A stretch of 64,000 nt of DNA. Origin: Methylomonas sp. LL1. Lineage in GTDB: Bacteria; Pseudomonadota; Gammaproteobacteria; Methylococcales; Methylomonadaceae. The DNA lies in assembly GCF_015711015.1 (NCBI RefSeq), contig NZ_CP064653.1, positions 3,782,001-3,846,000 on the forward strand, given 5' to 3'. Positions 32,053 to 35,694 of this stretch are shown here, piece by piece. The notes below the pieces were generated by a model. The model was given only the letters and a program-made list of their open reading frames with translations. It searched no databases and was not told where the DNA came from. Made by a program: the position numbers and the translations under genes. How positions within the stretch are numbered: position 1 is the first letter of the stretch; every line of letters begins with the position of its first letter.

Positions 32053-32187
32053 GGGGTGAGCTCCGGAAGTGATTGAAAAGAGTAGTGGATGGTTTTACAC
32101 AACAGGTTGAATATTAATCCAACTCATGTAACAGGAATGGCTTTTTTGGGTGCCGGTATCGCGACGGATGTTTTGAAGTCAGTTCTT

Positions 32188-32275
32188 GGACCGACTACCG
32201 AGATACTTTACTTTGCGTCGCCAAAAGAAAGTATCCAAAGAAAAGGCGCCCCGGATGCCGCTTGAATCCTGCGCT
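32188..32275. repeat. Left arm of an inverted palindromic repeat flanking the AT-rich cassette
   Basis: The reverse of the right arm (35461-35560) matches this segment over most of its length: GGACCGAC-ACCG-GATAC, then the hairpin, then CCAAAGAAAAGGCG, CCCGG and TGATCCTG-like blocks. The hairpin itself is GATACTTT-CTTTG / CAAAAGAAAGTATC (32202-32215 with 32222-32235). It has one substitution that breaks the stem. Confidence 0.75.
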
Positions 32276-32337: not shown

Positions 32338-33330
32338 TTAGGACGGAATGCCTGTCGGCCTTGTTGGTGAGTAATATTTTTCAGGAATTTGATTATTTAT
32401 CCCCCATTTTGGAGGGTAAAACATCTTTAATTCTTGGCTATTTAAAGAGAATTTTTGTTTGATTCTAGTTCTTCCGCCTACGGTTAATTCCGGATCATAG
32501 GCCCTAGCGTATTTATCAATTTCGCAAAACAAATTCTGGCAATCGATTAATTGTAATGGCCGGCCGAATAAATCTTTAAACTCGATGCCTCGGATAGAAA
32601 ATTCTTCGTGCTGGCGTTCTGCAACGTAGCGAATGATTTCGCTGGGTGTTAATTTTCCGGTGTCGCCGAAACATTTTGTTATTCCTCGCAATGCGCCGGG
32701 CCCCGGTACGACAAAATCGCTTTCTTGGCCGCAGTCAAGATTGCTATAGGCAAGATCGATGGTGTACTGATAGGCTAAAAAGTCGCCTAATGTCGGATAG
32801 CTTTTTAAAATATCAAAGACAGTCTTTAGATTTTTCGCCTCGGCTACTCGTTCCGGGACATTGTCCCGCATCATATATTCAAGAAGCTTTAAATTGTTTT
32901 GATGTTTGCGCGGGAAACCAAATTCTCTGATGCCGGATGGCATAATGTATGCCGCAGAGTAAATTTTATTTTTACTGTCGATCAGGTTGCTCAAAATTTC
33001 GTCGTATAGACGAAAATCGTAATTGGCAAAGCTGATGGTATCCTTTAAAACGTTACTAAGATTTTCCCATGTGGAAATGCGGTTAAAAAAACGAAATAGC
33101 AGCGTCCTAAAGAAAATCTCTTTTGGAGGTTGGCTCCCGGTGTATATGACGTGCTGGATAAGGTATTGGCTAACTCTATCGGAAGCGCGATAAGCGTTAG
33201 TGAAACGATATTTAGATAAAATTGGATCGGCGGTTAAATTATTGCTTTCGCCTGCTAGGCGCTTATAAAAAATATTTTGGCGTTCTGCTGCAAATTTCCA
33301 ATATAGGTCATAAATTTTGCTTTCTTTCAT
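32338..33330 (-). CDS. Protein resembling the 5-hmdU DNA kinase helical domain (HMUDK_hel-like)
   Basis: 330 residues. The N-terminal block LYWKFAAERQNIFYKRL, then DPILSKYRFTNAYRASDRVS, matches my memory of the helical domain in phage 5-hydroxymethyluracil DNA kinases and putative thymine-hypermodification enzymes. No P-loop is seen, so kinase activity is not supported. The middle has DFLAYQYTIDLAYS and FVVPGPGALRGITKCF, which also recur in that group. It is third in a three-gene operon and overlaps the preceding gene by 4 nt (ATGA). AT-rich compared with the flanks. Role inferred: base modification, or recognition of modified DNA or nucleotides. Confidence 0.7.
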   Translation of the reverse strand: MKESKIYDLYWKFAAERQNIFYKRLAGESNNLTADPILSKYRFTNAYRASDRVSQYLIQHVIYTGSQPPKEIFFRTLLFRFFNRISTWENLSNVLKDTISFANYDFRLYDEILSNLIDSKNKIYSAAYIMPSGIREFGFPRKHQNNLKLLEYMMRDNVPERVAEAKNLKTVFDILKSYPTLGDFLAYQYTIDLAYSNLDCGQESDFVVPGPGALRGITKCFGDTGKLTPSEIIRYVAERQHEEFSIRGIEFKDLFGRPLQLIDCQNLFCEIDKYARAYDPELTVGGRTRIKQKFSLNSQELKMFYPPKWGINNQIPEKYYSPTRPTGIPS

Positions 33331-34196
33331 TTAGGCCTATTGTTGCTAGCTTCCTGCTTATGTTCCGTGTTTTGATTGGCTTTCTTATGATGTTCAATTA
33401 ATTGATCAAGCTCTTTTTTATATTCAACAAATCCCGTAAAAAATTCATGCTGCTCTATTGCAAATTTTGTAATGCTTATTATGGAATTTCCGAAGAAGAA
33501 TGCTACTGGAAATACTATGACTAAAAACAATGCAACAATTCCCTTCCAAACCCAACCAATAACAGAAACTGCTTTTTCAGCTTTTTGCTTTGCGTCATCA
33601 ATCTCTGTTATCTTTTTGGAAACGATTGAATCTATGTTACGAAATTCGCTTGTTAGAGCTTGTAACGAATATATTTCCTCTGTTGATATCTGATTTAAAA
33701 CATCGATAGGGATATTGATATTCTCAGGGGATGACTGAGGTTCTCTGGGCTTGTTGTCTGTTTGATCAAGGCCCGCAAACCATATTACGAAAAATCGCAG
33801 CCCTCGATTAAGATGCATCGGGGTTGGACCCGCATTATAAATAGTAAACAACAATTTACCCTTAAAGCCTGGGTCAACATGAAAACCAGATATATTAACT
33901 AGGCCTTTATATTTGTACTTCGCCTTTATGGAGATAAAAGCAATTGCATAAGCAGGTACTTCTACAACTTCCTCAGTTAATAAAAATGCAAACTGGCCAG
34001 GCGGTATTACAAAATCCTGACTTGGTGAAAGCCTGGTTCTTGTTTGAAGGGCGTTTGAGTTTCTATGATCGTTGGTAACAAATACCTCATCCCCTATCTT
34101 AAGAGTATATGAGGCTTCTTTTACCTGAGTGGGATCAAAGGGCGCTATAAGCGAAGGTAATTCTGAATTAAGCTTTTGACTACTCCAAAACGTCAT
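33327..34196 (-). CDS. dCTP-deaminase/dUTPase-fold protein with a C-terminal membrane segment
   Basis: 289 residues. The N-terminal half follows the Dcd pattern: SYTLKIGDEVFV, FVIPPGQFAFLLTEEVVEVP, a GLVNISGFHVDPGFKGKLLF core and the LNRGLRFFVIWF strand. At positions where E. coli Dcd has the catalytic Arg115 and Glu138, I read Lys and Thr, so deaminase activity is doubtful. After a coiled-coil-like stretch (about 180-215) comes one transmembrane helix (about 218-242) and a charged tail. The start is 16 nt after the preceding gene. Possibly a membrane-anchored nucleotide sensor. Fold confident, function inferred. Confidence 0.75.
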   Translation of the reverse strand: MTFWSSQKLNSELPSLIAPFDPTQVKEASYTLKIGDEVFVTNDHRNSNALQTRTRLSPSQDFVIPPGQFAFLLTEEVVEVPAYAIAFISIKAKYKYKGLVNISGFHVDPGFKGKLLFTIYNAGPTPMHLNRGLRFFVIWFAGLDQTDNKPREPQSSPENINIPIDVLNQISTEEIYSLQALTSEFRNIDSIVSKKITEIDDAKQKAEKAVSVIGWVWKGIVALFLVIVFPVAFFFGNSIISITKFAIEQHEFFTGFVEYKKELDQLIEHHKKANQNTEHKQEASNNRPK

Positions 34197-34212
34197 CCTA
34201 ACGTCCCTGAGT

Positions 34213-34803
34213 TCAGTGATTCATGTAGTGATCAAAAAAAATCGATTTCTTTTTTACGCCATTCAGCCGCGAAGGAACTTCGGATACCAAGTCAATTTTA
34301 TAGACGGAGGCTGCTATTAACATCAGAAAACAAATTCTGATGACATTGTCAGTAATCAATTCTCTATAGGCGTAAGGCTCCAGATGGTCGACCGATTCGC
34401 ATGCCTTTGCAAGCTTGCCAACGGTAACAGGATAATTTTTTGCCAACCACAAAGAATCTTCCGTGTTAATTTCCAATTGAGCGGCAATATTTCCACCTAG
34501 CTCAAAAAAGCCAGTAGCTCCATCCAACATCTCGGTAGTCAATTTGTCTGAAATGCGGATGTTCAAAGTATTGGCGCAGGTTGTTGAAATAATGAACGAA
34601 TCAATGATGTTCTTTTTTAGAGTTGTTTCATTGGGTCCGTTAAATAGGCAGTCGCAAATACTGCCAGAGTATTTGGCAAAATGAAGTGCCATATGATTTA
34701 TGCGCTGATGGACATTGAGTCGAGTAATTTCTTTATGAAACAACTCGTCATGATCTAGCTGTGCTGTTTGCAGCTTAAACAGTTGTTCGATGATGCCATT
34801 CAT
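34213..34803 (-). CDS. Helical protein, possibly MazG-like NTP pyrophosphohydrolase family
   Basis: About 196 residues, all-alpha. The C-terminal part (ELITDNVIRICFLMLIAASV, then YKIDLVSEVPSRLNGVKKK) resembles the end of MazG-type pyrophosphohydrolases, where an E-x3-D helix precedes a hydrophobic helix and a GIDL-like turn. The metal-binding EExxE helix is not clear; LDHDELFHKEITRLNVHQRI may correspond. Starts at 34803, 34836 and 34872 are all possible and none has a strong ribosome site. First clear gene of the cassette operon. The family call is tentative. Confidence 0.5.
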   Translation of the reverse strand: MNGIIEQLFKLQTAQLDHDELFHKEITRLNVHQRINHMALHFAKYSGSICDCLFNGPNETTLKKNIIDSFIISTTCANTLNIRISDKLTTEMLDGATGFFELGGNIAAQLEINTEDSLWLAKNYPVTVGKLAKACESVDHLEPYAYRELITDNVIRICFLMLIAASVYKIDLVSEVPSRLNGVKKKSIFFDHYMNH

Positions 34804-34879
34804 GATGTGCGACCCATTAGTTCTTAAATATTTCATTGAAGGAATGACTGTTAGCCACCTTGCCGCATTCATAGACCGC

Positions 34880-35104: not shown

Positions 35105-35694
35105 AAGCAGCTAAAGATGTTTGGATTTTGCTGCTTCTTTTAGGGAAGGAATTATATGCTAACTGGTAATCAATCGGAAATTTATAACGCGATACGTGCG
35201 CCACCACAAATAGGTTGTGCCGCGCGAAGCAAGGCGCAGAGGTCGCGATCGATGCGCCTCCTAGCTTCGGTGTATCCTATATTTCGAAACTGTAACTTTT
35301 ATATTGATTTTCTACCGAATCGTGGGATGGTTTTATTCCCGTTATTTCGCCCCGAGCATCGCAGCTTTTGGCGAGATCAGCCCGTCAGGGGAACGGCAGG
35401 GATGCCGCTCGTTTTCGGAGGGCTAAGGATAGCCTTTCCGAAAACCCTCGCCAAAAGCGAGAAGCACAGGATCAAGGCGGAATGCCGGGTCGCCTTTTCT
35501 TTGGATACTTTCTTTTGGCGACGCAAAAGAAAGTATCGCGGTTGTCGGTCCGCGAACCGACATTAAATTAACCCGTCGCGATAGCGACACAATAATTGCC
35601 TCGTTTTGATCTCGTTGGATTGACTGGCGCTTCGTTACCGCTGGCGCGGTTACGCTGCATTCCCACGCGGCGCGCGGGAACGAGATCAATAATC
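35105..35694. other. Repeat-rich intergenic region between the cassette and hisD
   Basis: No supported gene; an apparent 136-residue plus-strand ORF here runs through repeats. It contains the right arm of the inverted repeat (35461-35560), a GTCGCGATAGCGAC palindrome (35574-35587) and a TTCCCACGC...GCGCGGGAACGAG imperfect palindrome (about 35661-35685). The last resembles a dispersed repeat in methanotroph genomes. A minus-strand TATAAT at 35151-35156 may drive the cassette. Confidence 0.6.
35461..35560. repeat. Right arm of the inverted palindromic repeat
   Basis: It holds a perfect 14-bp hairpin, GATACTTTCTTTTG / CAAAAGAAAGTATC (35504-35517 with 35524-35537), with loop GCGACG. The flanks CGCCTTTTCTTTGG and CGGTTGTCGGTCC match the left arm (32188-32275) in inverted orientation. 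Together the arms bracket the AT-rich cassette. Confidence 0.8.

Follow-up and report, generated by a model that had tools for sequence, protein, structure and literature searches.

A possible nucleotide-centred anti-phage cassette in Methylomonas sp. LL1: the MZ, DCD and HM genes as a compact relative of HMUDK_hel systems

What do three small, AT-rich genes do that lie between his genes in the chromosome of Methylomonas sp. LL1? The genes, here called MZ, DCD and HM, are found within a stretch of 64,000 nucleotides (nt) of contig NZ_CP064653.1 (positions 3,782,001 to 3,846,000), which was analysed as a whole and is referred to as the window. They are tightly packed, with 16 nt between MZ and DCD and a 4-nt ATGA overlap between DCD and HM, just as a previous sequence-only reading had described them. 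That reading had taken the products for a MazG-like protein, a membrane protein with a Dcd fold and an HMUDK_hel-like protein, and had proposed ties to nucleotide or modified-base chemistry and to defence. Here we suggest that the three genes may form a compact anti-phage cassette centred on nucleotides, which would be a pared-down form of the widespread HMUDK_hel systems and serve in the surveillance of abnormal pyrimidines, a tentative reading to which we give somewhat less than an even chance.

The arrangement of the three genes is conserved beyond chance. At least 554 encoded relatives of HM were confirmed in one genome scan, and 93 HM loci were compared, comprising 80 genome loci (the best-scoring of these relatives, not a random sample), 8 of 21 plasmid records and 5 whole-genome loci including the window; several of the 93 are cut by contig ends. 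MZ, DCD and HM recur in the same order and on the same strand in nine loci other than the window (L004, L010, L014-L019 and L056), and these loci span alpha-, beta- and gamma-proteobacteria, which answers favourably the earlier question of whether the trio are neighbours elsewhere. DCD and HM are 789 nt apart in L056 and 77 nt apart in L010, and their spacing otherwise ranges from -17 to +8 nt. DCD accompanies MZ in all 11 loci with MZ, as opposed to 28 of the 82 without it (the Fisher co-occurrence tests were computed as if loci were unrelated); in L009, the MZ-DCD pair is located apart from HM. On a tree of HM proteins the MZ label takes three changes or more, which concern L010, L056 and a clade of eight that includes the window, and all partner labels together require 22, compared with 46 after shuffling. 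Either gain or loss may underlie each change, and the place of the long L010 branch is unsure.

The HM protein matches PF18723 (HMUDK_hel) with an E value of 2.9e-102 and 342 bits (cut-off 25), and the DCD protein matches PF22769 at E 2.1e-16 and 60.9 bits (cut-off 27), so both profile assignments of the sequence-only reading stand. The association of HM with kinases fared differently: the 330-aa window protein has no P-loop kinase domain with a Walker A motif, which rules it out as a 5-hydroxymethyldeoxyuridine (5-hmdU) DNA kinase. An N-terminal P-loop with a likeness to thymidylate kinase is present in 26 of the 93 HM relatives, and a kinase gene lies near 9 others. The predicted fold of HM is of the type found in DNA glycosylases and queuosine nucleosidase, by which HM would belong to the HhH-GPD DNA glycosylase superfamily. 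Its residue Asp263 is the same in all 45 HM proteins aligned and is preceded by a PGPGA turn at residues 209-213, and this motif order makes it a candidate for the catalytic Asp of a glycosylase. HM homologues are present in 289 phage records, some of them annotated as aGPT-Pplase1, and the best-ranked phage match shares 36.6% identity with HM.

The DCD protein also scores 74.9 bits against TIGR02274, under the cut-off of 92.8, and aligns with solved dCTP deaminases from the PDB. In these alignments its Thr118 falls in the column of Glu138 of E. coli Dcd, which we take to be the catalytic residue. Across 41 rows of the DCD family, two of which derive from a single broken gene in L057, this column holds Ser (26), Ala (9), Arg (4), Thr (1) or Gly (1) and in no case Glu, and a working deaminase is therefore unlikely. 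A hydrophobic segment follows in 38 of the 41 open reading frames (ORFs), being a single helix in most rows and missing in L010, L079 and one L057 fragment. Thus, the Dcd fold and the membrane segment of the previous description hold; sequence comparison points to DCD as probably a conserved, membrane-anchored pseudo-deaminase, whose role is more likely binding than catalysis.

The MazG-like assignment of MZ has to be abandoned at the level of sequence, since no Pfam or NCBIfam match was obtained up to E 10 and comparison with six MazG proteins of sister loci by hhalign gave a probability of 1.5%. The predicted model of MZ matches dUTPases instead, including PDB entries 5myd, 5myf and 5myi, and its predicted fold is of the dimeric dUTPase (dUTPase_2) type. 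Dimeric dUTPases carry ExxE and ExxD metal motifs. The residues of MZ that are invariant in 17 of 17 proteins (H37, H41, K44, D68, E136, D139, H140 and E142) do not spell these motifs. A sequence link to solved dUTPases was rejected, as the best rows were unrelated chains, and three dUTPase sequences (L153-L155) yielded no profile match (probability 0.5, with an unreliable alignment). Pfam searches with five further MZ relatives gave nothing of weight. A viral origin for MZ was likewise rejected: 0 of 83 pattern stretches in IMG/VR were confirmed, and the matches in 7 phage records are weak. Throughout, ORF starts were taken as the first start codon past a stop rather than from annotation; an alternative MZ start at 34803 would give 196 aa, and the Met at this position is the ORF start in four of the seven closest relatives (L004/L110, L016, L017 and L018, L110 being a longer stretch of locus L004), while the ORF in L019, a Nitrosomonas locus, begins one codon ahead of the equivalent Met.

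HM is a member of a widespread modular network, which includes MazG, ThyA, radical SAM, kinase, TIR-Nmad2 and helix-turn-helix (HTH)-metallopeptidase modules. Exactly one of four partners, MAZG (40 loci), THYA2 (27), MZ (10) or RSAM (8), is found in 85 of the 93 HM loci, more than one in 3 and none in 5. ThyA1 lies near 64 and ThyA2 near 30 of these loci. A metallopeptidase-ThyA1 pair is present in 63, mostly with HTH and acyl carrier protein-like genes, and TIR-Nmad2 in 19; the metallopeptidase and TIR blocks avoid each other without being exclusive, as 6 loci hold both. DCD and Nmad2 occur together in 10 of the 93. Profiles of 11 other neighbour families gave no match in the 64-kb window at E<=0.01; it holds none of the TIR, Nmad2, ThyA, kinase, radical SAM and MazG components of the network, and the idea that a remnant of the larger operon persists there was rejected. 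Beyond the window, the genome was searched for HM, MZ, Nmad2, dUTPase_2, hisD and the palindrome described below; Nmad2 gave no match elsewhere in the genome, though the controls of that search also gave none.

Some details of the network are recorded here in passing. A radical-SAM gene follows HM in L025, L032, L044, L049, L059, L063, L076 and L083, and none of these eight loci holds MazG or ThyA2. Near the HTH-metallopeptidase block, there are small proteins annotated as acyl carrier protein in L006 and L011, and genes for AcpS or a phosphopantetheinyl transferase in L009, L010, L118 and L123, which points to a link with carrier proteins.

Defence genes are frequent company. The MZ-DCD-HM genes of Pseudomonas panipatensis (L056) have TIR-Nmad2 after them. 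The one TIR representative tested (L065) was identified as ThsB by PADLOC (E 1.1e-52), ThsA adjoins the TIR gene in L079 (E 5.8e-203), and the one metallopeptidase tested (L006) is CapP-like (E 1.1e-13). A PADLOC and Pfam scan of 100 of 644 unassigned flanking ORFs (the first 25 families, with no control set) listed AbiEi, Argonaute, ThsA and restriction methylases among its PADLOC matches. A plasmid (L007) holds a phospholipase gene annotated as CBASS and TIR genes beside HM, and L123 and L126 have Shedu genes in the vicinity of DCD and MZ, respectively. Genes annotated as uracil-DNA glycosylase (UDG) lie near DCD in five loci on alphaproteobacterial plasmids where HM was not called (L119, L120 and L122-L124), four of which carry an HTH-metallopeptidase-C1 peptidase block and three MazG; the UDG profile matched in L122, the one checked, at E 6.6e-10. 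These loci may represent a parallel system in which UDG stands in for HM. The proposed ties to nucleotide or modified-base chemistry and to defence genes are supported. The likeness to Thoeris extends to a ThsB-like TIR and, in one locus, ThsA beside HM relatives; unlike Thoeris, the window contains no TIR gene (the ThsA profile was not run on the window).

How does the cassette compare with other known systems? The Brig proteins have their kin among UDG-type glycosylases. Modified bases in phage DNA are the targets that Brig1 and Brig3 excise, and activity against modified thymine was reported for Brig2 (PMC11078745, PMC13160076); glycosylase attack on modified phage bases would be the point of likeness, together with the UDG-annotated genes near DCD where HM is absent, whereas HM has another predicted fold and base excision by HM is putative. 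The matching of MZ to dUTPases with roles in signalling (the three PDB entries above, of dimeric and trimeric kinds) is a further parallel, since both dUTPase-type folds adjoin here; in contrast to those dUTPases, DCD has a membrane segment. The search for named systems gave a divided result. With PADLOC-DB 2.0.0 at E<=10, no family matched HM, DCD or MZ, and the absence of a named counterpart holds to that extent. However, the excerpted text of the DefensePredictor paper (Science 2026; PMC13092281) describes validated E. coli anti-phage systems with 5-hydroxymethyluracil kinase and thymidylate synthase, its Fig. 3C legend for validated systems also naming dNMPk and NMAD, as well as predicted, unvalidated systems with aGPT-Pplase, MazG, MazG-C, dUTPase and NMAD, the legend adding UDG. 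By text labels, our loci hold several of the same domains (HMUDK_hel, ThyA, thymidylate-kinase-like, Nmad2, MazG with MazG_C, DCD and UDG); the window differs in lacking the thymidylate synthase, kinase, MazG and NMAD of the network, and MZ is not named in those excerpts. DNA searches with three HM genes as queries found no HM relative in E. coli, so that none was available for comparison with the validated systems. No publication on the MZ-DCD-HM set was among those listed by literature searches, whose coverage lacked key papers of the field.

In the reading that we favour, MZ and DCD, as diverged versions of two unrelated dUTPase-type folds, would bind abnormal pyrimidine deoxynucleotides during infection, with dUTP, 5-hydroxymethyl-dUTP or their relatives as candidate ligands. 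DCD, which is probably no active deaminase and would be tethered to the membrane, would signal there, and HM would flip the matching DNA base into its glycosylase-like pocket and either excise or block it. The link to pyrimidine deoxynucleotides is drawn from the predicted glycosylase fold, the two dUTPase-type folds, and the ThyA, thymidylate kinase, MazG and UDG genes or domains of relatives. Because the window lacks the hydroxymethylase, kinase and MazG of the network, the abnormal base would be supplied by the phage or by a disturbed pool, and the lack of network enzymes that make or phosphorylate 5-hmdU is also why surveillance of foreign or disturbed pyrimidines is favoured. We infer the ligand, the base chemistry and the outcome for the phage. 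Several observations weigh against a strict three-gene unit: within 12-kb stretches, MZ-DCD occurs without HM in L116, L119 and L120 and MZ occurs alone in L125 and L126, and HM mostly occurs without MZ, so the trio is not obligate. A more specific version, in which MZ (all-helical dimeric fold) and the membrane-anchored DCD (beta Dcd fold) are both catalytically silenced and act as two sensors that report abnormal pyrimidine deoxynucleotides and license HM to attack a base of the phage DNA, seems unlikely to us as a whole; HM would then be a protein of HhH-glycosylase fold, on the predicted model, distinct from the Brig glycosylases.

Other functions can be envisaged. HM might add a group to thymine-type bases of the DNA of the host or of a mobile element, as self-marking or protection, in the manner supposed for its phage relatives, with MZ and DCD trimming or sensing the pool. 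This proposal, which we consider doubtful, draws on phage thymidine hypermodification, known from M6 and ViI and involving aGPT-Pplase1/2 and 5-hmdU DNA kinase: HM is homologous to proteins of phage records, and the aGPT-Pplase1 that some of these are annotated as is part of described thymidine-hypermodification cassettes (PMC9476957). The thymidylate-kinase-like P-loops, kinase genes and ThyA-type genes of other HM loci also speak for it. The identity with the best-ranked phage match given above is a point of difference from those pathways, and the window lacks the hydroxymethylase, ThyA, kinase and radical SAM of the network (the search for these covered the 64 kb of the window), so the cassette alone cannot make the usual 5-hmdU-pyrophosphate handle; the missing deaminase Glu and the membrane segment of DCD also count against this proposal.

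The membrane segment and altered active site of DCD would instead fit a signalling immunity in which HM and a partner make a modified-nucleotide messenger, and DCD serves as a receptor-effector that damages the membrane. CBASS has membrane effectors, and TIR, ThsA and a CBASS-annotated phospholipase stand beside HM in other loci. We nevertheless regard this as rather improbable: no signal synthase was identified in the window cassette, the DCD segment is mostly a single helix, and the coexistence of DCD with Nmad2 argues that DCD is not simply an alternative effector. Least probable in our estimate is that these are housekeeping or counter-defence genes of plasmids or mobile elements that tune dUTP/dTTP pools and have no immune role. 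Relatives do reside on plasmids (HM in 21, DCD in 21 and MZ in 10 records), dUTPases are often carried by phages and mobile elements, and the cassette is an AT-rich stretch between repeats; set against this are the Dcd glutamate, missing across the DCD family, the defence-type neighbours, and the protection of E. coli by systems with related domain labels (PMC13092281).

The surveillance cassette proposed here was probably acquired horizontally, since HM is sporadic in the genus. With the window genome included in each count, HM is present in 2 of 37 genus, 4 of 369 class and 5 of 398 phylum genomes, and MZ in 2 of the 369 class genomes, both of which have HM. The GC content is 0.398 for MZ, 0.372 for DCD and 0.403 for HM, compared with 0.516 for the whole window, and the GC content at third codon positions is 0.31-0.43, whereas six neighbour genes have values of 0.60-0.80. 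When 2,535-nt stretches of the window were sampled each 100 nt, the eight richest in AT all overlapped the cassette. The AT-richness originally noticed is thus borne out. The flanking genes, named from their ORFs, are hisD on the murA-hisG-hisD side and a symporter gene with hisC on the other; in 12-13 kb of each of four other genus genomes, murA-hisG-hisD was found without the cassette, and the symporter gene and hisC did not adjoin it. The inverted repeats said to enclose the cassette in this murA-his locus are real (83 nt, 88% complementary; Table 1), but the genome holds 10 strict copies of their palindrome, which is therefore not a mark of the cassette; the palindromes are thereby ruled out as its boundaries. 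The palindromes, at 35504-35537 and 32202-32235, are a dispersed repeat, possibly a repetitive extragenic palindromic (REP)-type element.

Table 1. Positions of the cassette genes, selected codons and flanking repeats within the window.
Feature	Position	Strand	Remark
MZ	34872-34213	minus	219-aa ORF; all-helical, predicted dUTPase-like (dimeric type) fold
DCD	34196-33327	minus	289-aa ORF; dCTP-deaminase/dUTPase-type beta fold, then one hydrophobic segment
HM	33330-32338	minus	330-aa ORF; stand-alone HMUDK_hel protein, predicted DNA-glycosylase-type fold
Asp263 codon of HM	32542..32544	minus	candidate catalytic Asp of glycosylase superfamily
Thr118 codon of DCD	33843..33845	minus	column of E. 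coli Dcd Glu138, from alignments
DCD predicted transmembrane segment, residues 216-234	33495..33551	minus	hydropathy scan
Inverted repeat, left arm	32172..32254	none	genome-wide repeat, probably not part of system
Inverted repeat, right arm	35485..35567	none	includes palindrome 35504-35537

Relatives outside the trio loci show other states of these genes. On two haloarchaeal plasmids HM and MZ face apart, being adjacent in L118 and separated by one gene in L117, and no DCD was found in either stretch. The 26-kb plasmid of Acinetobacter sp. ESL0695 (L121) bears two MZ-DCD-HM copies, each with HM divided between two ORFs, and MZ and DCD are also broken in the first. The HM system of L029, whose contig bears the title Bacillus sp. 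2B10, is nested on the tree among alphaproteobacterial copies, which reflects recent transfer or contamination.

HMUDK_hel proteins are numerous in bacteria, and we found no account of their cellular role. The MZ-DCD-HM cassette is best read as belonging to a recently recognised and poorly understood kind of nucleotide-centred anti-phage systems, in which DCD would present a deaminase fold that has probably been turned into a membrane-bound sensor. Its three-gene form, free of kinase and synthase parts, makes it a convenient case in which to test whether modified bases are made, marked or attacked by the core that these systems share.

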